Part shown: piece by piece, positions 3,835-46,945 of the stretch
How the letters are laid out: each line of letters begins with the position of its first letter
How positions within the stretch are numbered: position 1 is the stretch's first letter
Source of the DNA: Mesotoga sp. BH458_6_3_2_1
GTDB lineage: Bacteria; Thermotogota; Thermotogae; Petrotogales; Kosmotogaceae
DNA length: 53,546 bases
Direction: 5' to 3'
Assembly: GCF_003664995.1 (NCBI RefSeq)
Contig: NZ_JFHL01000004.1
Coordinates: 1 to 53,546, forward strand
Notes under the pieces: model-generated
What the model was told of the DNA's origin: nothing
Seen by the model: the letters and a program-made list of their open reading frames with translations, nothing else
The model's database searches: none
Translations under genes and position numbers: made by a program

Positions 3835-3860
3835 AGAATGGCATGGAAATGGGAGGTTAT

Positions 3861-7004: not shown

Positions 7005-7005
7005 G

Positions 7006-14834: not shown

Positions 14835-14850
14835 TGAAATCACCTACGAA

Positions 14851-14880
14851 TAATGGCAATAAATATAGATAATTGCCGTT
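14851..14880 (-). promoter_or_regulatory. AbiEi operator
   Basis: An imperfect palindrome: read on the minus strand, AATAACGGCAAT, 11 bp, then ATTGCCATTATT. It sits 20 bp before the abiEi start. AbiEi antitoxins are known to repress their operon through inverted repeats, so negative autoregulation is likely. Confidence 0.6.
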
Positions 14881-14899
14881 ATTTGTAATTATAGCATAT

Positions 14900-17386: not shown

Positions 17387-17419
17387 AAACACCTCCAGCT
17401 AACTCTATTAAGTACGTCA

Positions 17420-19620: not shown

Positions 19621-19621
19621 T

Positions 19622-21850: not shown

Positions 21851-21859
21851 GAGTATCAA

Positions 21860-27866: not shown

Positions 27867-27870
27867 AAGA

Positions 27871-30800
27871 CTACCACTCCACTTTCAGCATTTTGTCCAT
27901 AAGCTTTTTGCTGAGTACGTCGAATTTCAGCAGCCCTCTCTTCTGGAGAGGCGCGATGTTTTTTGCCACGCCTCCGTCCACTTCGGGGAGGTAGCTCCCA
28001 TCCGCCAGTTCGCCGAGGGCGTTTGAGAATCTCTCCAGTTCTGCCAGTTTCTCCATTAGCTTTTCTCTGTTCTTTTCGTTCAGTTCGGTCGCAAGCGAGT
28101 TCTCGAGTGTTCTCTTCACGTCTCCGAGGTACTTCGATCTCAATAGAAGCATCTTGTCGTAACTCCAGCTGTGATGAAGAACGAGGAAGTTCACGCTTCC
28201 CTTATCCGATGTAAGCTGCCAGATTATTGGTCGGCTCATAAACCTCTTGGAGTGATCCTTGAAGAAGTCTTTAAGCATGTAATCATCCAGTTTCTTCCCG
28301 AGGAGATTTTCCAGCTCGTTGTAGGTGTCGCCTATCCCTAGGGCACGCCATCTCTCTATTATCCTCGTCGCTATTGAAGTCTCTCCCGTATCCGTGGAGA
28401 GTGAGAGTATTCCGTCGTCGTCTTCTCTCATTATCTCTATCGCGAGAGCCTGTATGTGTTCAGAGATAACGTCCTTAACTGCCTCCGATGGAAGGGCGTC
28501 TATCTTCGAAAGCTCTTCGACTACGGTTACGGGGCTGACTTTTAGAGTCCCGGCCAGTTCTTCGACTATGCCGAATTCCATCCCCGTTATGGCTTCGCTC
28601 TTACCCGAGCCTCTATCGTGTCTGTGTTTCATATACAGCTTCTTCAATGTCTTTCTCTCGTCTTCATTAAGATCTCTGGGAGGGTATGCGCCGACAGGTA
28701 TGCCTTCGGACTCGAGGACCTCCAGGACGGCGGCGTAGAGGTCAGATGAACCGTCCTTCGTCCTTAGTCCCAGATCGTGGACCCGTCCTTCGTTAAGAGC
28801 AGAACGCGCATCTTCCGTGAGCGACCCCAAGGGCCCGGATTGTGTAATCACATCCAAAAGCGTCAGGTCTTCGGGAAGGAGTTCGTAGAGCTTCAATACG
28901 AGTTCGTCGTTTACAGCCTCGTTTATAAGCAATCTCGCCTCGAGCTCTGCCTTATGCAGGAAGAACTTCTTCAGGGCGCTCTTCACATTCACAGGGCCGC
29001 CCTCTTCGCTTATCTCTTTCAGCCCCCAGGAGAGAGGGTCGTGTTTGAAGTCGCGCTCCATAACGTGGAAGCTATACAACTCTTTCTTTATCTCTATGCA
29101 GTCCCTGGCAAGAGAGGAGAGAGTAACCGAGTTGAGCGTGGAGAGTGGGGAGTGAGGAGAGAGGATCCGCAGTAGGTCTTGGATTTCACTGGGGCTTAGG
29201 GCTTTACTACCCAGGGTAGATGGATCAGGGATTGGAAGATTCTTTAAATCACTAACCTGATAATGAACAGTGGGGTTTTCAACATTCGCGAGCAGATTTA
29301 TCAGTTTACTATTGATGATACCTAGATAGTTTTTTGGATTACTATTGTCAGTGAAGATCGATGAAGATACCACATCAAATATGATGTTTTTCGGGCTATA
29401 TCTTATGCTTAGGGACGAAGATGTGGTTTGTGGAAAAGTCAACCCCTCTCTGAAGTAGTGGGGAATGTTATCCAACCTTGATCCAGAAAGCTTTCTCATT
29501 TCATTGCCATCTTCCCAAGACACTACCCACCACAAGTTCCCGTACCACTTGTTGTAAGGTCCCCCTTTAGCGTAGGGCACCCACTTCTTTCTATCGCTCT
29601 TGTAATCTAGCGAGATGTCTACTTGCTCCACTTCCCACCAAAAACGGAGGAATTGATCGTTATTGCCTGTGCTTAAGCCGTGAGCAACTTTGGCATACTT
29701 CATAAGGGGCTTGTACTTCCTGAACAGCTCCCTTATACTGTCGTTTATCCAGTAAACGAAGGGATAGCCCGGGATTTTCTTGAACTCGTTTTGGTTTAGT
29801 GTATATGCTCTTTGGGGTACTCTTCCGGCCAGGGTTTCCTGTATGGTCCTGACCTTCTCTTCGTAATCCAGATCTTTCACACTATGAAATGACGATTCCA
29901 AATGACCGTTGCCCCTCTCTATGGAGAACATAACGGTATTAACTATCTCGCCTCCTATGCTCTTGAACGCCCGCGGCCCGAGGTGAACCAGAGAGGAGAT
30001 CCTCGCACTGTCCAGAAGTATCTTCCTCAGCTTTTCGTGTGAGGATATGAACATAAAGGACTGCATCGTAACCATACCCAAAAAACCTCTCTCAGCCGCT
30101 AAATCTAAGCACTTTTCTATGAAGGCCGAGTACATATCCGATTTCGAGTCGGGATAGTAATCCTTCAGGAAGGTCTTCATATCTTCAGAGAGCGTTCCCG
30201 AGTCTCTATAGGGCGGGTTCGTGACAACAACATCGTATTCGCTTAACAGGAGTCTTATCGCACTGAACTGTTTGGCGTAATCGCTGTTTAGAAGCGAAGA
30301 AACGGCATCCACGTGTGCCGGAAGTTTTTCCTCTATCGTGTCTACCATTTTCTGTATGAGCCTGTCCATAGACCTGTCTGGAGATGCTTCCATAAGCGCA
30401 GATGTCTTCTCTGTCTTTCTCTTTTTGCCTGCAGGCTTCATTCTGAAGAGAGAGCCGATCATATTGAGTTTCTTGAGGCTTGTTAGGGTCTCCATAAGGT
30501 TGCGAATCACAGGGTTGGTGAGGTCGGAAAGACCCATTGAGATCATAAGGTCGGATTCGTCGAAGTGATCCATAGAGAGTGCATAAAGGTTCGACCTCTT
30601 CAATTTCGTGTTCCTGGATAGCTTCTTGGCCTTCAGATAGAGGCTCAGGGCAGTCAACTGTATCGCCCTGTCATCTATGTCAAGACCGAAGAGGTTGTTC
30701 TCAACTATCTTCTGGGGAATATTTTCACTGTGCCCGCAATCCAAGTACATCTGGTGAAGCAGATCCATAGCGTAGAGGAGGAAGTGGCCGCTTCCACAGG

Positions 30801-31629
30801 CAGGATCCATAACGGTTATCTCTTCAACTGACTTCTTTTCGCGACTCTTTACCGGTACCGTTGTGTCGTAATACTTCAGGGAGTTTCTTAAGGGGCTTTC
30901 GGGGTGCATCTCCAACCAGTACCGACCTAGTGTGTTATCTAGTATGTATTTCACTATGTAGTCTTCTGTGTAGAACTGGGTGACACTCACGAGTTTGTAA
31001 GAGGAATCGACCTTCTTTTTTGCCGAGATTTCGGCGTAGATCCTCGCTTTTTCTGCGTCCTGGTAATACTGGTAAATCCAGCCTATTATGTCGTCTTTCA
31101 GCCATTCATCAGGGTCTATGGAGTTGATTAGGTCTATCACAGCTACCGTTTCGCTCGGTCGTGGCAGAAAGCCGTAGCGGCTGCCGTTATACAGCTGGGG
31201 AAGCTCCTGTGAGAGAGTCTGGAAGACTTCTCTCAGTACGGTGTTTATTCCCTGGCCAGGTTCGCTGTTTGCCTGCGGATTGCGGCTTAGATAAAGGTAG
31301 TGAGCCTCGCTCTTTCCCCCAGTGTCTATGCTCTTGGTTACATATGTCCGCTCGATCAAGCCTCTGAGCTCCATCACTTTCAGTCCGACCAGCCTGTTGA
31401 GCGTGGTGAATGAGGCCTCCTGCACAAACTTATTTCTCGCTTCTTTTGCACCGAGCTGTTTCTCGTCTGCCTGTATTATGGGAAGTATCTGGTTTCGCAG
31501 GTCTTCGAAACCCGTTGTCGGCTCTCTGTAATCGCCGTTTTCGGTTATGCCGCACTGTTTGAGAAGGAGTGGGTATGATTTCTCCAGAGTCTCGCGAATC
31601 TGTATTATCGTCTTTTCGAGATCGGCCAT
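27871..31629 (-). CDS. pglX: PglX, BREX adenine-specific DNA methyltransferase
   Basis: 1252 residues. SAM-binding motif I DPACGSGHFLLY is at about 271 and the catalytic NPPY at about 471 (VVVTNPPYRDSG), the N6-adenine methyltransferase pattern. The specificity region follows (about 600-800), and the long C-terminal helical part is typical of PglX. It marks host DNA, and the same protein is needed for phage exclusion in type 1 BREX. It begins 1 nt after brxC ends. No frameshift or phase-variable tract is seen. Confidence 0.9.
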   Translation of the reverse strand: MADLEKTIIQIRETLEKSYPLLLKQCGITENGDYREPTTGFEDLRNQILPIIQADEKQLGAKEARNKFVQEASFTTLNRLVGLKVMELRGLIERTYVTKSIDTGGKSEAHYLYLSRNPQANSEPGQGINTVLREVFQTLSQELPQLYNGSRYGFLPRPSETVAVIDLINSIDPDEWLKDDIIGWIYQYYQDAEKARIYAEISAKKKVDSSYKLVSVTQFYTEDYIVKYILDNTLGRYWLEMHPESPLRNSLKYYDTTVPVKSREKKSVEEITVMDPACGSGHFLLYAMDLLHQMYLDCGHSENIPQKIVENNLFGLDIDDRAIQLTALSLYLKAKKLSRNTKLKRSNLYALSMDHFDESDLMISMGLSDLTNPVIRNLMETLTSLKKLNMIGSLFRMKPAGKKRKTEKTSALMEASPDRSMDRLIQKMVDTIEEKLPAHVDAVSSLLNSDYAKQFSAIRLLLSEYDVVVTNPPYRDSGTLSEDMKTFLKDYYPDSKSDMYSAFIEKCLDLAAERGFLGMVTMQSFMFISSHEKLRKILLDSARISSLVHLGPRAFKSIGGEIVNTVMFSIERGNGHLESSFHSVKDLDYEEKVRTIQETLAGRVPQRAYTLNQNEFKKIPGYPFVYWINDSIRELFRKYKPLMKYAKVAHGLSTGNNDQFLRFWWEVEQVDISLDYKSDRKKWVPYAKGGPYNKWYGNLWWVVSWEDGNEMRKLSGSRLDNIPHYFREGLTFPQTTSSSLSIRYSPKNIIFDVVSSSIFTDNSNPKNYLGIINSKLINLLANVENPTVHYQVSDLKNLPIPDPSTLGSKALSPSEIQDLLRILSPHSPLSTLNSVTLSSLARDCIEIKKELYSFHVMERDFKHDPLSWGLKEISEEGGPVNVKSALKKFFLHKAELEARLLINEAVNDELVLKLYELLPEDLTLLDVITQSGPLGSLTEDARSALNEGRVHDLGLRTKDGSSDLYAAVLEVLESEGIPVGAYPPRDLNEDERKTLKKLYMKHRHDRGSGKSEAITGMEFGIVEELAGTLKVSPVTVVEELSKIDALPSEAVKDVISEHIQALAIEIMREDDDGILSLSTDTGETSIATRIIERWRALGIGDTYNELENLLGKKLDDYMLKDFFKDHSKRFMSRPIIWQLTSDKGSVNFLVLHHSWSYDKMLLLRSKYLGDVKRTLENSLATELNEKNREKLMEKLAELERFSNALGELADGSYLPEVDGGVAKNIAPLQKRGLLKFDVLSKKLMDKMLKVEW

Positions 31630-31630
31630 A

Positions 31631-34600
31631 TCAGTCCTCCAGCTCTATCTCTAGCTCGGTGTCTTCTGAAACAGAGAGTTTTTCCAGTTCTCGCTTCAAT
31701 TCCCGATAGGTGAGTTTTCTCTTTAGCTTCAATTTTTTTGGCTGTTCTTCCTTTCTCGTGGAATTATCCAACTTTTCAGGTGACTTTTCCCTCATAAAGC
31801 TGTCGAAGGAGTCCTTAAGCTTCTCCAGCCTGTTAGAGAACTCCGTTATGTAAAGACTGGCTTCATTCAATCCGGTGTGGCACTTCTCGCATTTTATGGA
31901 GAACTGTATTTCAAGCTCTCCACAGGGAGGAGTTGGTCTTCTAAACCAGTCCTGATCTCCCGTTCTCTTCCCCAGCGAGTTTGTCTCGTCCTGTATGGAA
32001 TCGAGATATTCGTGTATCTTCTTTAGCCATTCGTCTCTATCGTCGTGAATGGGGTTGAAGTAGCTCTTGTAGGTGTTGCGTAGATTCTCGAAGGTGCTAT
32101 CGAGATCGGTGCCGAAGGAGGCTATGCTGGGCAGAGTGTCCTTATACTCTTTCAAGATCGCGGAAAGTTTTTCGCTCTGGTCTTTCTCGAAGGCACCCTT
32201 GGAGATTTCACCTTCCAGCTCGTGAAGGAAGGTTTTCTGTCTGCGAATCAGCTCGTAGTTCTTATCTAGGAACTGCTCAGTCTTGTCTGCGGTCTCCTTC
32301 AGTTCGCGTATAGAATCTCTCTCGCGAAGCAGGTCATCCAGACAGTCGCTATCGCCACCGGTGAGAGTGTTTATCATCGTTCTTAAAGTATCTAGATTCC
32401 ATTTCACATCGGCACCGAGTTTTTCCATATTTTCTTTCAACTCATTCATTCTCTTGTCGAGATGTTTCATAGCTTCCAGTGCCCGAGATATGAATTCGCT
32501 CCTGGGTGACTGGAGCGAAAGTCTCCCGTCGTCCATAAGCGGGTTTATGATGTCCATAAGATACTGCTTGTCGGACGGCTTAAGGACTACGCTGCGCCGT
32601 ATCCTGGCCTTCTTGAATTCGCTGACGCTCTTCAGAGCCTTATGCACATCGGCCTTTCCGTAATAGTCTGAATTGTTTACCATTATCTTTCCGCCACGGA
32701 TGAGACAGGCCACTGAATAGATTATCGTTTCCGGGGTCCAACCATACGGAGGAGAAGAGAACTTTTCCAGCAGAGTCTCTCCCGTCTGATCCTCTTCCAG
32801 ATACTCTATGACCGGAGAGATTATCTTGTGTGTCTCGATCAGCTCCCCGTTGTCGTTGAATACTCTGTGGTCGTCATCTAATCGGATTGTCTTCAGCGTG
32901 TTCTGGGGTCCGCTCAATACTCCGTCTATGTCCTTGCTCGTGGCGGTTGTGTAGGTGATCTCTGTGTAATGGCCGGGGATTACCTTTTCCTTCAGGAGGT
33001 CCTTAAGCTCGTTTATTAGGCTGGAAGTAGGTTTCAATTCGCCCTCGTAAAGAAGCTGTCCCGAGTCTATTGCTTTTCGCAACACCCGACCCAGCTCGTT
33101 TTTCTTGTCGTTCATTATCCTGCCGTACTTGGTCAGGATTTCGTGTATGCCCTCTCCCGTCTTTTTCGTTCTGAAGGAGTTCAGCGAGGCGTCCAGGCTC
33201 TTTATCTCCCTTGCCAGATCGCCAATGGTGTCGTCGGCCTCGGGGATTACATAGACAGTATCGCGGTGGTTCATTGACTCGAATTCGAGACCTTCCACGT
33301 TCACACCAGTGAAGGGAGCGATGCGGACCTGGAGACCCTTCTTCTTGCCGCCGATCGCTGCGTTATCCAGGAACCATTCTATGGGAATCGAGGGACCATC
33401 ACCGTAACGGATTTCCTTGTAGTTGAAGATGTTCAGCAGTTGACGGACTATCTCTTCGTTTCTCTTTGGGATGTCTATCACGGTGTTATCCATCTCTGCT
33501 ATGAATTCTCTCTCGAGGTCTGTTACGAGTGTTATCTCACCGTTGTAGCGTGTGACGTATTTCGCCTTCTCGAGGTAGTCGAGGGCATCCTTTACTTCCT
33601 TGGTGAGTTCATACTGTTTGTCGAAGATGTTCTTGCAGAGCATACGGGTAATCACCGTTTCGCTCGCGCTTATCTTATTCAGGTTTTTCAGTATATGAAG
33701 CGTCTTTAGTATGTCGGAGGCCTTCACGTTCTTTCCCATATAATCGTCGGCACTGTAAACAAGATGGGTGACTCCTGAGCCGAAGAAGGAGGGACCTAGT
33801 GCGTCGAATAGGTCGGTGGCGCTCACAACCCGTCCGAACTCTTCATCCTTCACATTCTTCAGTATCGTGTCTACGAGAAAGATGAACTTGCGGGCCGTCG
33901 CCTGGTAATACGTAGAGCCGATGGTGTTTTGAACCAGATCGGGGAGTAGCTGGAACTGGTATGGATGGAAGGGGTAGTAGGTCATAAGGTCGTCTTTGGT
34001 TTCGGTCTTCCTGTAACTTCCGTTCGTGTCGCTGAGGGTCGTTATGTTCCCCTGGTTTTCTCTCATCGTCTTCTCGAACAGGGGCTCTGCATCTATCTTT
34101 TTCTTCAGCAGTCTTTCGCGGGCGACCTCATCCACGTTCTCTGACGTGAGGTCGAGTCTCACTTCGAAACGGTCTGTCAATTTGCCCAGCTTTCTCTTGT
34201 CGAAGTCCCTGTTGGCTATTAGCTGGTCCAGCTTCTCCTGTGAGGTAACTATTAGCCTGACCGATCCCTTGCCCTTTGCGGCGAAGGCCTCAGCGACTCC
34301 CTGCAGGGCCAGTATTCTGTCTTCGTTGTCTTTGAGGGATATCACGTACTGTCCGATTTCATCTACTATGAATACGAGTCTCTTCCCGGTCTTCATCGTG
34401 TAATCGACACAGTGTTCGGCAAGAACGGCCGGCGACAGGCTGTCGTATTTGTTGACTGCGGATTTCAGGAATTCACCTGCTTCATCCGGTGAGTAGCCAA
34501 TTCTTTCGGTCATAGCCTTTACCGCGTAGCGGCGGAACTCTCCGACGTTCTGCGCCACTTTCGAGTAGTCGTTTCCACTCTGCTCTATGTAATTTCGTAT

Positions 34601-35131
34601 CTCTTCGAGGTGACCGAATGTGTCTAATTCATACTCCATTATCGCTACGTTAGGGAATGAAGAGTAGCCACAGGTTTCGAGAAACTTCTTGAAGATCGAC
34701 TGCTGTATCGTTTCCATATTCAGGGAGCTGTCGGCAGTCATTTCGAACATAACGATGGTGCTCGGTATGCTGTTCAATGACTTTATGTTTCCCTTTATGA
34801 ATTCCGGGTTCGTGCAGTTGCTCAATCTCTCATTGAAGAGTTCGCGGGCCGTTATTCCCTTAGGTAGTGTGTGGTTCGTAAGGAGATACCCGATTATCTT
34901 CGCGAAGTAGGACTTTCCCGAACCGAAGAAGCCGGAGATCCAAACGCCTATCCTGTCTGTAGAGAGAAGCTTGTAGTTCGTCAGAAAGGTTTCGAGGTGT
35001 CTCTCTATCTGGTGAGTGACTATGTACTGGGAGATTTCTTTCTCTTCGACGGTGAGATCCTGCTCACCGGCCTTTATTACGAGAGGGACTTCGTCTTCGA
35101 TGTTTATCCTCAGAAGCTCTTTAATCTTCAT
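31631..35131 (-). CDS. brxC: BrxC, large P-loop ATPase of BREX
   Basis: 1166 residues. The P-loop GFFGSGKSYF lies at about 67-76 and the acidic Walker B RLVFIVDEIGQYV at about 253. The N-terminus KIKELLRINIEDEVPLVIKA is characteristic of BREX BrxC. Long coiled-coil stretches run at about 880-1060, and a C-terminal segment has one CxxC (FSIKCEKCHTG). It follows brxB by 25 nt in the same operon. Confidence 0.9.
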   Translation of the reverse strand: MKIKELLRINIEDEVPLVIKAGEQDLTVEEKEISQYIVTHQIERHLETFLTNYKLLSTDRIGVWISGFFGSGKSYFAKIIGYLLTNHTLPKGITARELFNERLSNCTNPEFIKGNIKSLNSIPSTIVMFEMTADSSLNMETIQQSIFKKFLETCGYSSFPNVAIMEYELDTFGHLEEIRNYIEQSGNDYSKVAQNVGEFRRYAVKAMTERIGYSPDEAGEFLKSAVNKYDSLSPAVLAEHCVDYTMKTGKRLVFIVDEIGQYVISLKDNEDRILALQGVAEAFAAKGKGSVRLIVTSQEKLDQLIANRDFDKRKLGKLTDRFEVRLDLTSENVDEVARERLLKKKIDAEPLFEKTMRENQGNITTLSDTNGSYRKTETKDDLMTYYPFHPYQFQLLPDLVQNTIGSTYYQATARKFIFLVDTILKNVKDEEFGRVVSATDLFDALGPSFFGSGVTHLVYSADDYMGKNVKASDILKTLHILKNLNKISASETVITRMLCKNIFDKQYELTKEVKDALDYLEKAKYVTRYNGEITLVTDLEREFIAEMDNTVIDIPKRNEEIVRQLLNIFNYKEIRYGDGPSIPIEWFLDNAAIGGKKKGLQVRIAPFTGVNVEGLEFESMNHRDTVYVIPEADDTIGDLAREIKSLDASLNSFRTKKTGEGIHEILTKYGRIMNDKKNELGRVLRKAIDSGQLLYEGELKPTSSLINELKDLLKEKVIPGHYTEITYTTATSKDIDGVLSGPQNTLKTIRLDDDHRVFNDNGELIETHKIISPVIEYLEEDQTGETLLEKFSSPPYGWTPETIIYSVACLIRGGKIMVNNSDYYGKADVHKALKSVSEFKKARIRRSVVLKPSDKQYLMDIINPLMDDGRLSLQSPRSEFISRALEAMKHLDKRMNELKENMEKLGADVKWNLDTLRTMINTLTGGDSDCLDDLLRERDSIRELKETADKTEQFLDKNYELIRRQKTFLHELEGEISKGAFEKDQSEKLSAILKEYKDTLPSIASFGTDLDSTFENLRNTYKSYFNPIHDDRDEWLKKIHEYLDSIQDETNSLGKRTGDQDWFRRPTPPCGELEIQFSIKCEKCHTGLNEASLYITEFSNRLEKLKDSFDSFMREKSPEKLDNSTRKEEQPKKLKLKRKLTYRELKRELEKLSVSEDTELEIELED

Positions 35132-35156
35132 TCCCTTACCCCCTAGTCCTTCTATC

Positions 35157-35690
35157 TCAAATTACCAATGCCCTGTAAACCGAAGTGGTGTGTCTTCCAT
35201 CCAGGAATGTCAGTATGTGTTCCTTCCTCTTTCCAGGATAGATGAACAAGACGGGATTGACGAGTTTGCCCGTCACTTCCTCTATTAACGGATTAAGGCC
35301 GAAGAGGCCGTTGAGTATGCCCAGCCTGTGTATAACCGTTAGAGGGTTGTCCTTTGAGGATTTCACTATGCTCTCTGTCATTTTTGAATGCAAGAGATGG
35401 GCGAAGTCTTTTATGCAGGACTTGCCCAGAAAGGAGAAGTCATCTGCCAAATTGTCCATTCCATAACTGGTGGCCGTCTCTGAAATTATGCTCCCCAGAT
35501 TCAACAGCTTACTCCTACCTTCAAAGCGTATCTTAAGTTCTCGGATGGCTGTCGTCTCTTCCTTGGGAGAGACTATGAGTACAACCGCCTTCGAGCCTTC
35601 GGTCTCACTGGTCAATGAATCTACCCTCTCCAGCTTTTCAGAGAGTATGTTTAGCTTCTCTGAAAGTGAAAGGTTATTCTTCAAGTGCAT
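35157..35690 (-). CDS. brxB: BrxB (DUF1788)
   Basis: 177 residues. The C-terminal block NPVLFIYPGKRKEHILTFLD followed by a GRHTTSVYRALVI end is the DUF1788/BrxB signature. Its ATG at 35690 overlaps the end of brxA by 17 nt. BrxB is a core BREX component of unsettled biochemical role. Confidence 0.85.
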   Translation of the reverse strand: MHLKNNLSLSEKLNILSEKLERVDSLTSETEGSKAVVLIVSPKEETTAIRELKIRFEGRSKLLNLGSIISETATSYGMDNLADDFSFLGKSCIKDFAHLLHSKMTESIVKSSKDNPLTVIHRLGILNGLFGLNPLIEEVTGKLVNPVLFIYPGKRKEHILTFLDGRHTTSVYRALVI

Positions 35691-36432
35691 TTGGCAGCAC
35701 CTCGAAATCTATTTTTGGTTCCAGCCTAACTATGTTTCCGGCCATCGCAAACTCGATTATTCCCGAAGCGTTCATTTCTACCAGGTAAGAAACAAGATCC
35801 CTCTCGTCTAGGAGAAGGTACTTGAAATCATCCGAGTGCAGGATTTTCGATGGGGAGAGACCTGAATTGAAAAGGAAGTAAAGGATAGCCATAACGCTAT
35901 TCTTATTTGGGCGGAAGTAATTCAAGTCTATGTTTCTTCCATTCGCATTCGCCATTCCTAGTTTAGAGGTTATGGCGAGGTAATTGGTTACCCTCTTATC
36001 CGACATATATGCGGTAAAGCCTTTCTCCTTGACGATGCAATCAATAACGTCTTCACGAAGCAAAAAGGCGGCTCCTTTATGGTATGCAGGGAATATCTGC
36101 TCGAGTGTAATGGCCCTGACCAATTCGTCTCTCTCACAGTTCTTCCAGAAGAGAATCTCTCGTTTAGTCTGAGTCTCTATGGTTTCAGAAGTCATTATGC
36201 GCGCGAAGACCCTCAGAGCTTCAGGTGAGAAACCCTTCACGTAGTCTCCTATGAGCCAACTTGCCAGTCTTCTTCTGTATTCGCCAGAACTGACTCGAAA
36301 CGGATCGTCTAAAACGAGATGACGTTTTATTTCCTCTGCGCTCCTTCCCTTCATAACTTCGGCCATTATGTAAATGACATTCTCTAGATGATCAAATGCT
36401 CTGTTGAGGTGTGTTTTTGAGTTTGACGGCAT
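35674..36432 (-). CDS. brxA: BrxA (DUF1819)
   Basis: 252 residues from ATG 36432, chosen because GGAGG lies 9 nt upstream and within an earlier ATG (36450) frame. It matches DUF1819/BrxA, a winged-helix DNA-binding BREX protein (RRLASWLIGDYVKGFSPEAL, REILFWKNCERDELVRAITL). It is the first gene of the six-gene BREX operon. Confidence 0.8.
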   Translation of the reverse strand: MPSNSKTHLNRAFDHLENVIYIMAEVMKGRSAEEIKRHLVLDDPFRVSSGEYRRRLASWLIGDYVKGFSPEALRVFARIMTSETIETQTKREILFWKNCERDELVRAITLEQIFPAYHKGAAFLLREDVIDCIVKEKGFTAYMSDKRVTNYLAITSKLGMANANGRNIDLNYFRPNKNSVMAILYFLFNSGLSPSKILHSDDFKYLLLDERDLVSYLVEMNASGIIEFAMAGNIVRLEPKIDFEVLPNALEE

Positions 36433-36461
36433 ATAGGAGACCCTCCACATTAGGTAAATAG

Positions 36462-39607: not shown

Positions 39608-39649
39608 ATCGCCCAAGCTCAGCAGGTTTTTCCGTAGACTGACTCACTT

Positions 39650-39842
39650 TTTGGAGGAACTTCATTTTTCTGGAGAGGGAAGTAAATAAAGAGCTTGAAA
39701 GAAAATCCCAATTGAGCCTGAGCCCTTTGGGATTCTCAACGAATCGGCGCGTTATCATTTGAAATGCGGTGGTACGTCTAGCTTTCCTTTCAATTTTGCC
39801 CTTCTTTAGCGCCTTTTGGAATTCGTGCTGTCAAAGGATAAT
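39650..39842. repeat. Cassette-boundary repeat, copy 1 (partial)
   Basis: It shares with copies 3 and 4 the stretch beginning AAATGCGGTGGTACGTCT and the end TTTTGGAATTCGTGCTGTCA (about 39762-39837), and with copy 2 the CTCAACGAATC segment. It lies after the phage module. The rest to 40175 holds no supported gene. Confidence 0.7.
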
Positions 39843-40175
39843 GTCATCTCATTTCGAGCATAGGGACTTAGTATTTTGCGTTGAGATCACTTCTCCTCTT
39901 TTCACGGCAGCGGCACAGTTCTCAATGACATTTCTCTTGGTATGATTCCTTCTAGTTTGAAGTTGCTTCCTACCTTCTTCCCTATTTGGATATTGATGAT
40001 AATTGTCTATCTTTTGACATGGTTGACGACTGCAATTCAGTCCTTCAAGGCAAAAGAATTCTTCTGTAGGTTCGTATCATTTTCTTCTTCCGAATTCTTC
40101 TTCGAAGTCTTCTCTAACTCATAGCTTGGCTCGTCTGTGAATCGGCTTCGAAATTCGATATAGAAGTTACGTATG

Positions 40176-40187
40176 CTAATATATTAG
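40176..40187. promoter_or_regulatory. Palindromic operator/promoter of TIGR04255 cassette
   Basis: CTAATATATTAG is a perfect palindrome, extended to GTATGCTAATATATTAGTATGC with near symmetry. A GATAAT -10-like box follows at 40193, just upstream of the first gene. It probably binds a repressor of the cassette. Confidence 0.4.
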
Positions 40188-40212
40188 TATGCGATAATGA
40201 AGGCATTTTTTG

Positions 40213-41004
40213 ATGAGATTGGTGTTTAACATGAAGAGGCCAATTCTTAAGAACAAACCTCTAGTCGAGGCAATATTTGAGTTGCGCTGGGCTCTGAAAA
40301 CCCAGGAGTCCGGATCGATAGTCGATCCTCATTATAGGATAGTCTTGGGCAGTTTATACAGTAGAATTCGTGATGAATATCCTTTTCACGAACAGCTTCC
40401 TTCAGCTTCTATACCTGACGAAATGGCGCCTTTTGTTGTTCAGCACCGGTTCCGAAAGGAGCAAGAGTCTTGGCCATTGGTGCAGCTGGGACCCGGAATT
40501 ATCACGCTGAATGCGACTGAAGACTATTCATGGGATGACTTCAGTTACAGAATTGACAGGTTGATCGAAAGTTTCTTTGAGTCTTATCCAGATCCAAACA
40601 TCAACTTGAAGGTTAATATGCTTTCCCTCAGATATATTGATGCGATAGGTTTTGATTACTCTTCGGAAGACTTGTTCTGTTTCTTGCAGAAGAATCTGAA
40701 AGTGAACGCTGAGATAGACAGCAAGCTCTTTGAGAAATGCAGTGTAGACAAAAATCCTATTGCATTTGATTTTAGATATGCTTTTCCGGCAAAGGAAGAA
40801 GATAGTCAATTGAATTTCCGTGTAATGCGAGCCAAGAAGAATGGGAGAGATGTTCTGCTCTGGGATACCCAGATTGTTAGGATCTCAGATGAAGCTCTCA
40901 GTTCGGTTGTGGAAATCATGAAATGGGTTTCTGAAGCTCATTCTTTGGCGGAAGAATGGTTCTTTGGGTTGATTGAAGGTGATTTAGTCAGGAGGTTTCA
41001 GTGA
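40213..41004 (+). CDS. TIGR04255-family protein
   Basis: 263 residues starting MRLVFNMKRPILKNKPLVEA. The KNKPLVEAIFELRW opening, followed by YRIVLGSLYSRIRDEYP and the GPGIITLNATEDYSWDDF block, is typical of TIGR04255, a sporadically distributed family of unknown function often near mobile genes. ATG 40213 is preceded by GAAGG. It is the first of three tightly packed genes; AGGAGG for the next gene lies inside its last codons. Confidence 0.65.
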   Translation: MRLVFNMKRPILKNKPLVEAIFELRWALKTQESGSIVDPHYRIVLGSLYSRIRDEYPFHEQLPSASIPDEMAPFVVQHRFRKEQESWPLVQLGPGIITLNATEDYSWDDFSYRIDRLIESFFESYPDPNINLKVNMLSLRYIDAIGFDYSSEDLFCFLQKNLKVNAEIDSKLFEKCSVDKNPIAFDFRYAFPAKEEDSQLNFRVMRAKKNGRDVLLWDTQIVRISDEALSSVVEIMKWVSEAHSLAEEWFFGLIEGDLVRRFQ

Positions 41005-41384
41005 TGTTAGCTATTACGGTTAGAGAATACGATTCCTATGTATTGCCTAACGGGACGGCTTCGTCAGTTTTCGAGAATTCCTCTGTCTTGTCCAGGCAAT
41101 TCCCAGAATCAGCAGTGTACCAGACCCTTAATCCTGCAAGGATCATCGTATCGGGGTTCAGATCATGTGGTTTTGCCGACGCCGGTACTGTGCTCGATAC
41201 ATTGCTTCCTGTCTGGTTCTCGGAGACAGGGACTTCAGAAATTCTTCCCAATGTGAGAGAAGCCAGGGATTCTGTACCTCTGCCAGGCCATTTGCCCCCA
41301 AAAGCAAGGTACAAGATTAGATTGACCATTAGAAACGTAAGAAAAGGTCAGCCAAGCCGACTTGATGACGACGACTTGTTATAG
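41004..41384 (+). CDS. Hypothetical protein, second gene of the TIGR04255 cassette
   Basis: 126 residues (MLAITVREYDSYVLPNGTAS ...). ATG 41004 overlaps the previous stop and lies 8 nt after AGGAGG. No recognised domain, signal peptide or membrane segment. Conserved coupling suggests it works with both neighbours. Confidence 0.55.
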   Translation: MLAITVREYDSYVLPNGTASSVFENSSVLSRQFPESAVYQTLNPARIIVSGFRSCGFADAGTVLDTLLPVWFSETGTSEILPNVREARDSVPLPGHLPPKARYKIRLTIRNVRKGQPSRLDDDDLL

Positions 41385-41393
41385 GTGATCTTG

Positions 41394-41918
41394 ATGGCAG
41401 AGTATCCCTGGTATAAGACGGTTGAGAAAGACCAGCCGCCAGAGCAAGGTGATTTCGTCTACTCATGTCCAATAATAGTTCCACCAGCTACAATCGAGGA
41501 ATGCAAGCAGATCGAAGCTGATGTAATTACTTATGATGTTTTGATTATGAGTCAGTCTTGCGACTTAGCAAACAAGAAGATTGATCTCGTTCTTGTCTGT
41601 CCAGTTTGGTCCTTAAAGGTAATAGAGAATTTGGTCCCTCACTTCAAAAGGAGCTCTGAGAAGGAACATCTTCGCAGGGGATATATTCATGCGTTCCATC
41701 TCCTGAACAAGAGCGAAATTGACAAGTTCACTGAGGACTTCTTGGTAGTTGATTTTAGAAACGTGTACGGTGTTCACTATGACTTTCTGATGGAGCATTT
41801 GAGAAAACAAGGAAACCGTCTTCGTTTGCTTCCTCCGTACAGGGAACACCTCGCCCAAGCCTTCGCGAGATTTTTCATGAGAGTAGGACTTCCTGCCGAT
41901 ATTCCTAAATTCAAGTAG
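41394..41918 (+). CDS. Hypothetical protein, third gene of the TIGR04255 cassette
   Basis: 174 residues (MAEYPWYKTVEKDQPPEQGD ...). ATG 41394 has AGGTGA 5 nt upstream. A conserved-looking core VLIMSQSCDLANKKIDLVLV and a C-terminal REHLAQAFARFFMRVGLP are visible, but I do not recognise the family. The cassette sits between two boundary repeats in a defence island, so a defence role is likely but unproven. Confidence 0.55.
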   Translation: MAEYPWYKTVEKDQPPEQGDFVYSCPIIVPPATIEECKQIEADVITYDVLIMSQSCDLANKKIDLVLVCPVWSLKVIENLVPHFKRSSEKEHLRRGYIHAFHLLNKSEIDKFTEDFLVVDFRNVYGVHYDFLMEHLRKQGNRLRLLPPYREHLAQAFARFFMRVGLPADIPKFK

Positions 41919-41929
41919 GAAAAGACTTA

Positions 41930-42085
41930 GAATCTGGAAATCTGATTTCTTCGTTTCTTTTGGCTTTTCTGAAAGAGCTTCTTCTTCATGAAGGGCAATG
42001 AACGTAACTCGCAAAAGAACACTCCAAGTCAAGTCTGGGGCCTTTGATATACTCAACGAATCAAGCGCGCGGTGATTTGAAAACA
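41930..42085. repeat. Cassette-boundary repeat, copy 2 (partial)
   Basis: The 77-bp block from ACTCGCAAAAGAACACTCC to CGCGCGGTGATTTGAAAA (42006-42082) is repeated in copy 3 with one mismatch. It follows the TIGR04255 cassette directly. The rest to 42620 has no supported gene; a hairpin ATTCTGAC/GTCAGAAT lies at about 42278-42305. Confidence 0.8.
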
Positions 42086-42623
42086 ACGTCTTTCGTACAA
42101 CTTCCTAGATCATGGACTCGTCCTTTGGAGAGTACTGCTAAAGAAGCAAACGCGGCCGTTTTACGGATCGAAGACGTAGATCCTGTGCAGGTGCTCTCAC
42201 AGGATGACAAAGTAAGGGATTAACTTGAGTTACTCGGGATGGCTGTGTAAGGTTAGTCGGAAAGCAGCTCATGTGGTCATTCTGACGAAGCTTCTGGTCA
42301 GAATCTAGATCGTTGGCGCGGGCCGACGCTATAGATATTTCAACAAGCGAATACACCGCAGTAAGAGAATACATTAAGCTTATTGTAGTTAATGCAACTT
42401 AATGAATAATCCGGATGTCTTTGCGAAGGAAAAGCCGCACGCAGAAGAATCGTCGGAGGCCAACTACTCGATTATTCTCCATCCAAAGATTAACTCAAGA
42501 GGATTGTTGAAACCATCTGGAAAGCTCATGGAAATCATTCGATATCGCGAGCAAAGCCTTGTTAACTGGCCCAAAATGGTGGTAATGAGTAATAATCGTT
42601 ACGGATCGTTCTTACAATAATAC

Positions 42624-42641
42624 AACTTATAAGTTATAAAT
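42624..42641. promoter_or_regulatory. Operator and -10 of TAC module A
   Basis: The perfect palindrome AACTTATAAGTT (42624-42635) runs into GTTATAAAT, 10 bp before the toxin start. TAC module B has a matching ATAAGTTATAGGTTATAAAT leader, so both are probably repressed by their XRE antitoxins at similar sites. Confidence 0.5.
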
Positions 42642-42650
42642 AGAGGTAAG

Positions 42651-43077
42651 ATGGAGAGAAAGATCGATGTCTTATCCGACGAGAAAATGCAGAGGGAATT
42701 TGACAAGTACGTAGAAAAGAATCCCTCCAGAAAGAAGGATCTGATAAGGAAAAGGTTTTTTGTTCACCGAACTGCTGGAGAAGGCGGGGGAGAATTATGT
42801 GAAAACGGAACTTGCAAAACCGCGAAGATCTTCCCGCCTGGAGATTTTGAGACGTACGAAGACCAGTTATTCGATATATTCTCTTCATCTTACGGAGACG
42901 AAAAGGAATGATCCAGAAAACGCAAGGATTCTTTTCTGCTTCTTCAATGATAAGAAGGTTATTGTCTATCTCGTCTTCTTTGATGAGTCCGATGAAAAGT
43001 ATGAGAAGGCGATCGAGAGACTGAAGTCGAGGATTTATGAATGGACCGGGCGGGGATTTAATGTATGCAAGTTTTAG
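42651..43077 (+). pseudogene. RelE/HigB-like toxin of TAC module A, frameshifted in a T6 run
   Basis: It starts at ATG 42651 behind GAGGT. The first frame is lost after IRKRFF; the second continues as FTELLEKAGENYVKTELAKP ... AIERLKSRIYEW to 43077. Removing one T from the six at 42756-42761 restores one frame of about 140 residues. The restored protein has the RelE/HigB layout of the module B toxin (arginine-rich middle, FFNDKKVIVYLVFFDESDEK near the end). A homopolymer break could be a mutation, a reading error, or slippage that still makes some toxin. Confidence 0.6.
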
Positions 43078-43092
43078 GAGGTGTAGTTACTT

Positions 43093-43524
43093 ATGTTTTC
43101 ATGGGGTGTAGGCGACGGCAATAAAAGGATGGTTACTGAAGATCCAGAGCCTCTATTCAAGAGAGATAGCGACCTGTTGTTAGAGTCGGCAGACGATGAT
43201 ACGAGATTTGAATTGAAATTGATTGGAGTCATGACGGATATTTCTGCAGCTCTTATCAACTATCGGGCGGATAACTCCCTTTCACAAAAGGAGCTGGCAG
43301 AAAAACTAGAGTGCAGCCAGGCAATGGTCTCGAAAATCGAAAGTGGCGACTATAACTTCACAATTAGAAAGCTTTTTGACGTTGTCAACAAACTCGGAGG
43401 TCGTGTATCTTTTCAGATTGACTTCAAAGATGGTACTTCGGTTACAGATTCTTCAGAAGAGCGAGTCTCAATATGGGAGTGCGTTGGCAATCAAAGCATC
43501 AAAGGGATGAAGAATAGTGCCTGA
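43093..43524 (+). CDS. XRE-family antitoxin of TAC module A
   Basis: 143 residues. The helix-turn-helix (about 58-90, LSQKELAEKLECSQAMVSKI) is HigA-like. The C-terminal tail (about 122-143, VSIWECVGNQ) follows the DNA-binding domain and could be the chaperone addiction (ChAD) tail known from TAC antitoxins. ATG 43093 is preceded by AGGAGGTG. The gene overlaps the chaperone gene by 8 nt. Confidence 0.7.
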   Translation: MFSWGVGDGNKRMVTEDPEPLFKRDSDLLLESADDDTRFELKLIGVMTDISAALINYRADNSLSQKELAEKLECSQAMVSKIESGDYNFTIRKLFDVVNKLGGRVSFQIDFKDGTSVTDSSEERVSIWECVGNQSIKGMKNSA

Positions 43525-43969
43525 GCCAGTGAATGCTGAGTTTCGTTTCTTGGCGCACAGAATTTCTGATTTTTCCTTTACGCTCCATGAGGGGATCAAA
43601 AACATGTCAGTTTCGCTGGACCTGGATGATCCAGAGCTTGAATATAGGCGTGCCGATAACGGTTGCCTCCTCGGCTTGTTGTCTCTCTCAGTCAAAGTCA
43701 GGGGTCGGAGCGGCAGAAAGATTGCTTTGAAGCTCGATGCAACAATCAAGGGCAGGTTTGAAGCTCCCGAGAATATGGAAGATAAAACATTCGAAGACTT
43801 CTGCATGATTAGCGGGACCGCAACTTTGATCCCTCTTCTCAGGGCGACGATTATCTCTTTCACTTCGCAGGCTGGAATGAATCCCCCTATCAGAATACCT
43901 TTGATCAACGTACCTCAGTCACTCTCAAAGACCACTTTGTCAGAGAAAAGAGAGAAGAACAGGGAATAG
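43517..43969 (+). CDS. SecB-like chaperone of TAC module A
   Basis: 150 residues from GTG 43517. The C-terminal part (LIPLLRATIISFTSQAGMNP followed by PIRIPLIN) follows the SecB pattern LFPYAR..I....GGFPPL.L.P.N, preceded by an acidic EAPENMEDKTF segment at the position of SecB's GVF-LEE region. In TAC systems such as M. tuberculosis HigBA1-Rv1957 the chaperone protects an unstable antitoxin. It is translationally coupled to the antitoxin. Confidence 0.65.
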   Translation: MPEPVNAEFRFLAHRISDFSFTLHEGIKNMSVSLDLDDPELEYRRADNGCLLGLLSLSVKVRGRSGRKIALKLDATIKGRFEAPENMEDKTFEDFCMISGTATLIPLLRATIISFTSQAGMNPPIRIPLINVPQSLSKTTLSEKREKNRE

Positions 43970-44039
43970 TCTGATCGGAGCTCTCTTGAGATTATATTAG
44001 TCAGCTCACTTTCATCGCACATCTCGAGTGATCATAGGA

Positions 44040-44430
44040 TATAGCCAGTGGATATTTGTATTGAAGAAAGCAGCCGCTTACGCGTGGCTTCCCGGAGAAA
44101 ATCGCTCGAAATCAGCGTAGAAATCCTATGACAATTGCCGTAATTATGGGATTCGACTTCTTGCGACCGGCTTTCGACTGAGTATGACGACATTGAAAAT
44201 CAAGCTCGTTGTACCGAACCGCCGCCGGGAAAGACTCTTCTTTCAGAAGGATTCCATTTTTCTCATGAGACAGTAAACAGGACTCGCAAAAGAACACTCC
44301 AAGTCAAGTCTGGGTCCTTTGATATACTCAACGAATCAAGCGCGCGGTGATTTGAAAATGCGGTGGTACGTCTGGATTCCCTTTCGATTGTGCCCTTCTT
44401 TAGCACCTTTCGGATTTCTTGGTGTCAAAA
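44040..44430. repeat. Cassette-boundary repeat, copy 3 (longest)
   Basis: It aligns with copy 4 along most of its length: TTGAAGAAAGCAGCCGCTTA at 44059, TTCGACTTCTTGCG at 44152, GGAAAGACTCTT near 44228, then the block shared with copy 2 (44282-44358) and the end shared with copies 1 and 4. The 5' end reads KKAAAYA, like the start of serine recombinases. It directly follows TAC module A. Confidence 0.8.
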
Positions 44431-44816
44431 AGTAGTCTTCTCTTGGAAGGGTTTGTCTGGTAGATTTGGGAAACATCAGATTCTGAAAGAGGGAGAAGAG
44501 GCACCTCTTTTCGAGTGAAATTTGTGGTTGACATGGTTGCCATTTATTCTGCAAGTTGTTGGTTAGTCTAGTTCTGCTTATGAATTACCATATAAACTGA
44601 GACGATTCCCAATTTGACTGTTTCCCTCAAACTAAGAGATTCGCAAGGATGAAGAGAGCCCACGTTCTCTTCTAAGAACGATCACTGTTGTCGTGCAAGT
44701 TTAACGGCTTGACAAGACTACCGATCTACCAATCACATCAGATTAGTGTATTTTGTTCTGAATGTTAAGTGATGTAAAATAACAGACATGCCGTAATTAA
44801 ATTCAGGAGGATAGCA
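44431..44816. other. Gene-free stretch
   Basis: No supported gene or repeat between boundary repeat 3 and the broken gene at 44817. Confidence 0.4.
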
Positions 44817-45127
44817 ATGAGGAGCAGGGAGAAAGCTTACGAGATCCTTAGCATTAGGGATTTTGGGAAACCAGCGAAAAAATATTAAGGTCCTGATGTT
44901 TGATCATACGACATCCAGAGATCAACAGAAAAGGATTCCTGCAACCATATGGCAAGATACGGCCAGGACGTGGAAGAATTCACTTCAGTGTTCTTTTTGC
45001 CAGGGATTGATGCACAGTCAGTTGCGTATGCCTTCGGGAGGTGTATGAATGCGAAGGGGTGTTATTTGACTTCTCCGCTCTGAGGTTTGATGAGACATTG
45101 GCAGTCAAAGGCGCAAACCACTACTAG
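44817..45127 (+). pseudogene. Broken gene of unknown family
   Basis: It starts well (AGGAGG 7 nt before ATG 44817; MRSREKAYEILSIRDFGKPA) but stops after 23 codons. Coding-like sequence continues in other frames: VLMFDHTTSRDQQ, then VFFLPGIDAQSVAYAFGRCM, then FDFSALRFDETLAVKGANHY ending at 45127. At least two or three frameshifts have occurred. The family is not recognised. Confidence 0.5.
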
Positions 45128-45260
45128 CCAATAGTGCAGTATATGCTGTTTCTTGTTGCCTGGGAAACTTCATGAATGAGAAAGCGGAAGAATAATGAGC
45201 ATAAACGTGCATACTTTAACCTAATCGACCGTGATTGTAATTCTCTCGAATCACTATTAC

Positions 45261-45280
45261 ATAAGTTATAGGTTATAAAT
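45261..45280. promoter_or_regulatory. Operator/-10 region of TAC module B
   Basis: ATAAGTTATAGGTTATAAAT contains two GTTATA repeats and ends in the same GTTATAAAT as module A, 10 bp before the toxin start. Confidence 0.45.
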
Positions 45281-45290
45281 GAGGTGTGCA

Positions 45291-45674
45291 ATGAGAATCA
45301 TAAGATCAGAAAGCTTCAATTCCTGTTTTCTAGATTTTCTGGACAAGCATAATAACAGGGTGGCTCCTGTTATGGACAAGCTTGGTTTCTTCGAAGAGGT
45401 ACTTGAAAGGGATGGGCCTATAGGAGTCAGAAAGTCCGGTCTACTGGAAAAGTTGCATGGTACGAACATTAACAGCATTACCCTGATTAGAAAAGGATTG
45501 AATGTTCGTTGTTTGTGTTTTTTTCCCAGCAATGGTATTGAAGAGGTCTGTGTTTTGCTTATGGTGTTCATTGAGAAGAGCTCAGCAGATTATGATAAGG
45601 CAGTCAGGCAAGCTGAAATTCTGGCGGATAAATGGTTGAGCGATAATAAAGGATTCAAAGTTCGAAAGGGGTGA
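45291..45674 (+). CDS. RelE/HigB-like toxin of TAC module B
   Basis: 127 residues from ATG 45291, with GAGGTG 4 nt upstream (the ATG at 45279 overlaps that site). The layout fits the HigB/RelE ribosome-dependent mRNA interferase fold: LLEKLHGTNINSITLIRKGL, VRCLCFFPSNGIEEVCVLLM and the final helix SSADYDKAVRQAEILADKW. Toxin-first order is typical of HigBA. Intact, unlike the module A toxin. Confidence 0.7.
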   Translation: MRIIRSESFNSCFLDFLDKHNNRVAPVMDKLGFFEEVLERDGPIGVRKSGLLEKLHGTNINSITLIRKGLNVRCLCFFPSNGIEEVCVLLMVFIEKSSADYDKAVRQAEILADKWLSDNKGFKVRKG

Positions 45675-45678
45675 AACA

Positions 45679-46086
45679 ATGGCCAATAAGAGGAGTTCAT
45701 CTTTTGGTGAGTTTCTTGACCAGATTGCAAAGACCTACAATGTTGAAGATTCTCTCGCTATAGGTAGGATTAAGGGTCAAGTTGCTAGTCAGTTAATGAG
45801 CTACAGAAAAGAAAGAGGTCTTTCGCAGAAACAGTTGGGTGAGCTGTTAGGTTTTAAGCAGCCATACGTATCAAATATTGAACGTGGAGAAGAGAATCTT
45901 AGCTTAGAAACTCTTGTCAAGATCTCTGCCTGTCTTGAAGGAAGACTGAATGTAGATCTTGGAATAACTGACAGAAAAACTAAGATAACAAAAGAGGTAA
46001 TAAAATACGTTCCAATATATATTCCCGTAATTTCGGTGCAGAATAATGAAAGCTCTTTTTGCTGGAAACCGAGTGAGGCGGCATGA
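45679..46086 (+). CDS. XRE-family antitoxin of TAC module B
   Basis: 135 residues. HTH at about 41-70 (LSQKQLGELLGFKQPYVSNI). The C-terminal tail, YVPIYIPVISVQNNESSFCW, is hydrophobic and aromatic, as expected for a chaperone addiction (ChAD) segment that makes the antitoxin aggregation-prone unless the chaperone binds. It follows the toxin by 4 nt and precedes the chaperone gene by 3 nt. Confidence 0.75.
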   Translation: MANKRSSSFGEFLDQIAKTYNVEDSLAIGRIKGQVASQLMSYRKERGLSQKQLGELLGFKQPYVSNIERGEENLSLETLVKISACLEGRLNVDLGITDRKTKITKEVIKYVPIYIPVISVQNNESSFCWKPSEAA

Positions 46087-46089
46087 TAA

Positions 46090-46509
46090 ATGAATAGAGT
46101 GGAACAAGCTATACTTCAGATGAAAAGATATCTGATAAAGGAGTTTTGCTTCTCCTACACTCCAGTGCAAAATGAGATCGTGATATCTATTGAACTCGGT
46201 AGAGAGACAAAAATCATCGAAGAAGACGGTAAGAAGAACTGTCTTCTTGAGCTCACTCTAACAGCATTTGGTAGAGCCGATGAGACAGATTATCTTACGA
46301 TAAAGGCAAGCATGGAGGGTGTCTTCGAATGCCAAGAAACCCTCGAAGAAAAGGCATTAGAAAAAATGGTTGCTGAGAGCGGTACTTCAATACTGCTACC
46401 AGTACTACGCGCAGCTATTCTATCATTTACAGGGCAGGCAGGACTTACACCTCCAATTGTTATTCCGCTTATGAATCCACGTTTTTCTTCGGAAGCAGAA
46501 AAACAGTAA
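46090..46509 (+). CDS. SecB-like chaperone of TAC module B
   Basis: 139 residues. ASMEGVFECQETLEEKALEK and ILLPVLRAAILSFTGQAGLT followed by PPIVIPLMNP reproduce the SecB pattern (GVF..., then LFPYAR...I...GGFPP..L.P.N) at the expected spacing. ATG 46090 lies behind GAGGCGG. With the two genes upstream it makes a complete toxin-antitoxin-chaperone operon. Confidence 0.7.
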   Translation: MNRVEQAILQMKRYLIKEFCFSYTPVQNEIVISIELGRETKIIEEDGKKNCLLELTLTAFGRADETDYLTIKASMEGVFECQETLEEKALEKMVAESGTSILLPVLRAAILSFTGQAGLTPPIVIPLMNPRFSSEAEKQ

Positions 46510-46549
46510 AGAGTCTATATACGCTTCCTCAGCTTTTCATAGAACCTCT

Positions 46550-46945
46550 CGATTATCCAATCATACAGCTGGCGGAAATTTATGTTGAAGAAAGCAGCTG
46601 CTTATGCAAGAGTTCCCAGAAAAAGCCGCGTGAAATCAGCGACAAAAACCCATGATAATTGCCGCAGTTACGGGGTTCGACTTCTTGCGCCCTTCTTTCG
46701 CCAGAATAAATCGACATTCAAAATCAAACACCGGCGCCAGGAAAGACTCTTTTTTAGTAGAAACTTCATTTTACGAGTGAGGCAATGAATGGGACTAGCA
46801 GAAGAAAACCCTGATCCGCGTATGGGATCATTGAGATATTTGACGGATCATGAACGTTTAATTCGAAAATGCGGTGGTATGTCTGGATTCCCTTTCAATT
46901 TTGCCCTTCTTCAGCGCCTTTTGGAATTCGTGCTGTCAAAGTCGA
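46550..46945. repeat. Cassette-boundary repeat, copy 4
   Basis: It starts near 46575 (TTTATGTTGAAGAAAGCAGC) and aligns with copy 3 to about 46760; the last 75 bp (46866-46940) match copies 1 and 3. It contains an open frame MLKKAAAYARVPRKSRVKSA, resembling the KKAAAYARVS start of serine recombinases, but it decays at once. It follows TAC module B. Confidence 0.75.

Follow-up and report, generated by a model that had tools for sequence, protein, structure and literature searches.

A three-gene TIGR04255 cassette from Mesotoga as a candidate tripartite toxin–antitoxin module with exchangeable toxins

What might a TIGR04255 protein be doing at the head of two genes that match no family, in a stretch of bacterial DNA that appears, by eye, to be rich in defence genes? 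The question is raised by a cassette at positions 40231-41918 of a 53,546-nucleotide stretch from Mesotoga sp. BH458_6_3_2_1 (the window, as we call this whole stretch), and a first-pass annotation had answered it with a new defence or toxin–antitoxin (TA) system in which the third protein could be the effector. The name TIGR04255 is absent from the literature that we searched, and a three-gene system like this cassette is absent from the listings on three-component TA systems, MazF-fold proteins, and TAC modules; few subscription papers or preprints were covered in either case. In other words, what are these three genes, and which of them does what?

Several other systems can be picked out of the window by eye: a BREX-like set at 23622-36450 (BrxL-, PglZ-, PglX-, and BrxC-like frames), two McrBC-like pairs (3843-8199 and 18346-21859), two AbiE-like pairs (13054-17392), and, at 595-1596, an MqsA-like zinc/HTH start joined to a Panacea-like end, as in antitoxins of the PanA network. 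Two TAC-like modules, each made of a small protein, an HTH protein, and a SecB-like protein, lie downstream of the cassette at 42760-43969 and 45279-46509. Their HTH proteins match HTH_3 (E 2.6e-9 and 4.4e-15), the SecB-like protein of the first falls below the cut-off (E 0.0063), and the two SecB-like proteins are 34% identical to each other.

The cassette and its borders

The three genes all lie on the + strand: ORF1 (40231-41004, 257 aa), ORF2 (41004-41384, 126 aa, which its position and the logic of its tail mark as the proposed antitoxin), and ORF3 (41394-41918, 174 aa, the proposed toxin). ORF1, the putative third component, is a TIGR04255 protein by a wide margin (133.5 bits against a cut-off of 30, E 1.1e-38), and its start is more likely the ATG at 40231 than position 40213, because the N-termini of relatives sit near the KPLVEAIFEL motif. 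ORF2 probably starts at the ATG at 41004, overlapping the ORF1 stop by one base, and ORF3 probably at the ATG at 41394, with a GTG at 41385 possible; Shine-Dalgarno-like stretches, read from the sequence, precede both on the + strand (AGGAGG at 40990-40995 and AGGTGA at 41383-41388). Searches of Pfam, NCBIfam, and PADLOC with an E limit of 1 gave no match for ORF2 or ORF3. The first-pass description of a TIGR04255 gene tightly coupled to two unassignable genes stands.

That description had also bounded the cassette by the repeat of the TAC modules, and the nucleotide search agrees. One copy lies upstream (39641-39836, search match 39698-39835, + strand), a shortened one lies downstream (41996-42083, search match 42007-42083, + strand), and further matches at 44233-44430 and 46745-46940 sit beside the two TAC-like modules. 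A 198-base query has four matches genome-wide at E<=0.001, every one of them inside the window. Across 39641-46941, this local repeat family sets the cassette and the TAC-like modules apart from one another, as though they had been swapped between repeats.

The proposed palindromic operator fared less well. A palindrome does exist at 40170-40193 (12-nt arms, 83% complementary, unstranded), but the best score of the region upstream of ORF1, 7.0 against a shuffle mean of 5.4 and a shuffle maximum of 10, is within chance (p 0.13). Upstream of TIGR04255 genes at large, palindromes showed no clear excess (p<0.05 in 12 of 157, against 6 of 95 control genes).

A predicted toxin fold for ORF3

For ORF3, no PDB sequence gave a credible match. 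PF02452 was not found in ORF3 itself, with an E limit of 1, or in any of 68 relatives, with a limit of 0.1. The family has its own pattern of conservation. An alignment of 68 sequences shows no variation at Q18, G19, and G96, at Q54, C56, and D57 of the SQSCDL signature (41550-41567, + strand), or in most of the C-terminal PYREHLSQAFARFFMRVGLP, among other positions. A conserved C-terminal segment, LLPPYREHLAQAFARFFMRVGLP (41826-41894, + strand), is invariant at most positions; C25, C69, and H102 are 96-97% conserved.

A confident AlphaFold model (pLDDT 91.8, pTM 0.85) predicts that this protein has the MazF/CcdB toxin fold. The top named PDB matches of the model are MazF, Kid, and CcdB (Foldseek E from 3.3e-4), all 11 PDB chains at E<=0.001 are MazF-type entries, and VIA gives Z 10.6 against Staphylococcus aureus MazF (3.0 A over 112 residues) and Z 9.2 against CcdB. 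Compared by profile with 15 PemK proteins of related genomes, ORF3 gave a weak link (6%, E 0.006), in which VLIMSQSCDLANKK-IDLVLVCPVWS is paired with CLVISVDQFNHGPAELVIVVPITS. The catalytic residues of MazF we take to be Arg and Thr; in that weak register, the Thr falls on Trp72, and the Arg falls on Tyr47 if the alignment is extended without gaps. ORF3, as modelled, shares the toxin fold, with a weak link to PemK by sequence; it may carry another ribonuclease site or may act as a protein-binding poison in the manner of CcdB.

The trio in other genomes

Close to home, the cassette is sporadic, because ORF3 was found in none of 100 relatives of the source genome (1 of 101 counting its own) and TIGR04255 occurs in 5 of 103 genomes of the source phylum, its own included. 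Searches of 72,556 plasmid records and 50,697 phage records found no ORF3 relative, and among the viral contigs searched, one encodes a relative (locus L010). Farther afield, a scan of GTDB genomes, from which the best 80 of 181 loci were kept, reached contigs titled Methanosarcinales, Heimdall- and Lokiarchaeota, Bacteroidetes, Planctomycetes, Dehalococcoidia, Synergistaceae, and Chlorobiaceae. On a tree of 77 ORF3 rows, archaeal and bacterial rows mix and the phylum labels need 28 changes where 19 is the least possible, a pattern that suggests horizontal transfer, with many of the forks weak. (One contig, L051, is titled as a Klebsiella pneumoniae MAG; its ORF3 groups with a Dormibacterota row, and the bin may be mislabelled.) In 4 of the 80 loci (L013, L058, L081, and L084), ORF3 is split over two frames, which may be decay or assembly error.

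The three genes do occur together elsewhere and in the same order. Gene order was counted in the 72 of 81 ORF3 loci with at least 1200 nt upstream: TIGR04255 lies within 900 nt upstream of the ORF3 relative in 42, and 41 of these also have a gene directly before ORF3. Such a gene is present in 64 of the 72, 23 of them lacking a detected TIGR04255, and 7 loci show neither partner. With 30 of 72 loci lacking a detected TIGR04255, 7 of these without a gene 2 as well, the trio is therefore not obligatory. Where ORF1 and ORF3 do occur together, their distances co-vary (Mantel r 0.80 over 42 loci, host kinship uncorrected, with none of 2000 permutations as high). In five loci (L070, L074, L082, L084, and L085), a different family of about 220 aa precedes gene 2 where TIGR04255 is missing; this five-sequence Planctomycetota family was considered as kin of TIGR04255 and set aside, a profile comparison giving no link (1.9%, E 0.026).

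The neighbours of related loci bear on the defence half of the original proposal, for which proximity to known defence genes had been suggested as a gauge, and they give a divided answer. Among sampled neighbours, there are some restriction-modification, PIN, and Schlafen-AlbA genes, and there are also sugar epimerases, GidA, MreB, and ArgJ. PADLOC models were matched in larger numbers by 150 neighbour genes (172 models; the genes chosen from 211, with no more than the 3 nearest taken from any locus) than by 142 control genes (26 models; 142 of 203, from 17 regions of 5 genomes), which is no strong evidence, because one restriction enzyme can match many models and the defence proteins behind the matches, judged from 25 listed rows, may be few. 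These neighbourhoods are looser than a defence island and fit scattered TA modules.

The second gene and its tail

The ORF2 family is poorly conserved save for a C-terminal tail of about 30 residues (...MPPKKRYTIEVKIKSIRKAxPRIVEPE), which in the cassette is HLPPKARYKIRLTIRNVRKGQPSRLDDDDLL (41289-41381, + strand), proposed as the segment that binds ORF3. An HMM of this tail picks out the gene before ORF3 in 60 of 82 loci, some of which served to train it, and none of the 88 gene-2 proteins that have no ORF3 behind them. It misses the other 22 of 82, as well as 8 of the 21 ORF3-type loci of a wider TIGR04255 set described below, a set that overlaps its training loci. In one locus (L048), such a tail sits on what looks by eye like a TPR-like protein. 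The N-terminal part of ORF2, for its part, goes with TIGR04255: an ORF2-like N-part is commoner in loci with TIGR04255 (18 of 43) than in loci without it (2 of 30; Fisher p 0.001, with rows that are not independent).

Exchanged toxins behind TIGR04255

What, then, stands behind TIGR04255 when it is not ORF3? In five genome samples, which include centre genomes picked for carrying it, the family was found in 5 of 103, 16 of 247, 30 of 321, 30 of 301, and 43 of 294 genomes. We gathered 118 loci, 116 with a usable TIGR04255 frame, and a simple longest-frame rule for finding genes placed a gene 2 directly behind it on the same strand in 110 and a gene 3 directly behind that in 99, with median gaps of -3 nt and +3 nt. 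The 99 third genes fall into 21 that are ORF3-like (10 of these from genomes preselected for ORF3), a HEPN cluster of 19, a "type C" cluster of 14 whose gene 2 is GWDSYGA-like, a "type A-prime" cluster of 12 (GD...S/T-Q/H-x-C-D-L/I), in which gene 2 often carries an HTH, and some small clusters, with 20 singletons left over. Also assigned to type C by eye is a trio with a GWDGHDA motif at 5983-7831 of a Pantoea plasmid record (L008).

Known toxins appear in this slot. At E 0.01, Pfam finds HEPN in 7 of the 99, YhaV, PemK, and PIN in 1 each, and a few plainly unrelated neighbours; most of the 19 HEPN-cluster members are thus assigned by clustering, and two (L173 and L204) have no Pfam HEPN match at E 0.1. 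The third gene of L205 gave a match below the cut-off, and that of L105, PIN-like by eye, was rejected as a PIN protein for want of a PIN match. In three loci of the source phylum (L003, L005, and L006), TIGR04255 is followed by a protein of 156-178 aa and then by a HEPN-type protein, which Pfam backs in L003 only. The second genes vary as well. Among 90 proteins scanned (the set excludes 12 rows that the ORF2 HMM had already matched, and 8 of 98 rows, L216-L220, L222, L223, and L228, were left out as unrelated by eye), Pfam finds HTH_23 in 8, HTH_17 and HTH_3 in 4 each, and PrlF in 1.

In two loci, the second gene appears to change along with the third. In L225, from a genome of the phylum searched around L011 (contig titled Methanosarcinales), gene 2 has an ORF2-like N-part (E 2e-20), lacks the ORF3-type tail, and ends instead in SETSLKKDWLKPEEDEAWKDL; the gene that it overlaps encodes a PemK (Pfam 1.5e-9). 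Relatives of this PemK were collected from 25 loci, one of them L225 itself (as L242) and two, L249 and L263, left untabulated; 21 of the 22 others have, in the antitoxin position, an ORF with a SETSLKKDWLKPEEDEAWKDL-type tail, and 20 of these 21 ORFs are only 59-82 aa long. The second gene of L225 thus appears to be an ORF2-like N-part that carries the tail of ordinary PemK antitoxins and is paired with a PemK. In L168, where gene 3 is YhaV (6.8e-46), residues 85-129 of gene 2 match positions 46-90 of the 99-position PrlF profile, its C-terminal half only, at E 0.0058, below the cut-off; the clean swap is known from one locus, L225. Because of these natural swaps and because likeness in the N-part tracks TIGR04255, the simplest reading is that the tail of gene 2 belongs to the toxin and its N-part to TIGR04255.

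A tree of 70 TIGR04255 rows, which like our other trees and counts treats related rows as separate, requires at least 14 changes of toxin class. L225 with its PemK falls within a starred branch of ORF3-type rows, a starred fork joins L162 (PIN) to L173 (HEPN by clustering), and a weakly supported one joins L168 (YhaV) to L100.

Discussion

Computation has given us a recurring gene order, co-variation between its first and third members, a toxin fold in the model of ORF3, a tail exchanged together with the toxin, and known toxins in the same slot. Because the trio recurs and co-varies, with a predicted toxin fold and known toxins where ORF3 stands, the cassette is best read as a TA system whose effector is the third protein. 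This supports the first-pass annotation, which had named that protein, with its SQSCDLANKK core, as a possible effector. The layout is that of a type II system, two adjacent small genes with the proposed antitoxin first. We put the probability that the cassette is a tripartite TA module, with an exchangeable toxin and antitoxin tail and a constant TIGR04255 protein, at about 0.65; that ORF3 is the toxin and ORF2 the antitoxin is, taken by itself, an assignment that we make with considerable confidence.

How would such a module work? ORF3 would be a small toxin of MazF/CcdB fold with a signature of its own (GD ... SQSCDL ... PYREHLSQAFARFFMRVGLP). The C-terminal tail of ORF2 would bind and block it, and the N-part would tie the antitoxin to ORF1. 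We suggest, as the most tentative step, on which we would not bet even money, that ORF1 binds the antitoxin, so that neutralisation would depend on ORF1; were ORF1 lost, captured, or altered, for instance during phage infection, the toxin would be freed.

Known systems resemble this scheme in some respects and differ from it in others. MazEF and PemIK, whose toxins belong to PF02452, share the fold of ORF3 by model comparison, place a small antitoxin gene directly 5' of the toxin, and likewise make the antitoxin's C-terminal tail the toxin-specific part, as the swap in L225 illustrates; ORF3, however, has no PF02452 match and conserves other residues, no known antitoxin domain is recognised in ORF2, and a third gene precedes the pair. 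In TAC modules, such as HigBA-SecB of Mycobacterium tuberculosis, a third protein makes the antitoxin conditional by chaperone addiction (excerpt of PMC5105189), and in CmdTAC, the third component, CmdC, senses phage (excerpt of PMC11618068). Like these systems, as excerpted there, the cassette has three genes and a third protein that would condition the antitoxin. That protein, however, is a TIGR04255 protein, whose profile showed no link (0.1%, E 0.43) to the pair of SecB-like proteins in the window, a weak test with two sequences on one side, and SecB is not among the structure matches listed for ORF1, which excludes nothing. The order here is third component, antitoxin, toxin, and the antitoxin C-terminus follows the toxin rather than TIGR04255, whereas the ChAD of TAC antitoxins is a C-terminal chaperone site. 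Given the gene order and the missing profile link, weak as that test was, the cassette is probably not a TAC module; by analogy, it would work like TAC chaperone addiction or CmdC phage sensing. The Panacea (PanA) network of hyperpromiscuous antitoxins is also reported to join one constant component to many toxin folds. There, the antitoxin domain itself stays constant; in the cassette, a separate protein does, and the antitoxin tail is what changes.

Could TIGR04255 simply be a repressor? ORF2 and ORF3 might be an ordinary type II pair with TIGR04255 as a separate DNA-binding autoregulator, a role proposed because ORF2-type antitoxins show no DNA-binding domain (Pfam finds none in ORF2). The precedent would be PaaR-PaaA-ParE, reportedly also a TA operon of three genes in which the third protein stands apart. 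In that operon, PaaR acts as a transcriptional regulator, whereas no operator was supported for TIGR04255. The AlphaFold model of ORF1 (pLDDT 91.9) has no confident PDB relative by Foldseek or VIA; its top Foldseek match is the TATA-binding protein (E 2.8e-4, TM about 0.25), and TBP-like viral transcription-factor entries recur among its BFVD matches, a faint hint in favour of a repressor, but TBP reaches a VIA Z of no more than 5.6. (Higher VIA scores, at Z 8.6, came from guanidino kinases and spermine synthase, which were set aside as relatives, since the tool calls that range common.) TIGR04255 also accompanies second genes that have an HTH of their own, HTH_23 among them, and palindromes are not in excess upstream of its genes; all told, we think the repressor unlikely. 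Still further down our scale, and quite improbable, is the thought that ORF3 is no toxin at all, an SH3-like MazF fold put to housekeeping or regulatory binding with ORF2 as its adaptor. The MazF-type Arg and Thr are not kept in the weak register, the conserved C-terminal segment could serve as a binding surface, and some neighbours are metabolic, but known toxins replace ORF3 in its slot with matching antitoxin tails, and the distribution is sporadic.

The last alternative is an anti-phage defence module: abortive infection of the TA type, in which ORF1 would sense a product of the phage. The cassette shares its repeat with two TAC-like modules, a Pantoea plasmid carries a TIGR04255 trio flanked by lysis and terminase genes in a region that resembles a prophage, an ORF3 trio is found on a viral contig, and the third component of CmdTAC is displaced by newly made capsid protein (excerpt of PMC11618068). 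Against this, ORF1-3 match none of the PADLOC families at E up to 1, the neighbourhoods of related loci are mixed, and the plasmid and phage records searched hold no ORF3 match. An anti-phage role is plausible, then, and we would still call it doubtful; of the proposal of a new defence or TA system, the TA part is the one that the evidence favours.

If we are permitted one larger speculation, which we hold only a little short of an even chance, TIGR04255 would be the hub of an undescribed three-gene TA superfamily in bacteria and archaea; the hub would sense infection or stress and guard a composite antitoxin, its N-part read by the hub and its tail fitted to the toxin at hand, be that a SQSCDL MazF-fold protein, PemK, HEPN, YhaV, PIN, or a protein of unknown fold, with ORF3 as a MazF-fold toxin that has a new active site. 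The natural domain swaps, with a constant N-part and an exchangeable tail and toxin, would make sensing by a third TA component something that can be tested by exchanging parts. A widespread family without mention in the literature searched would thereby gain a proposed function, and, if the reading is true, a MazF-fold toxin family missed by the sequence searches that we tried would be added to those already described.
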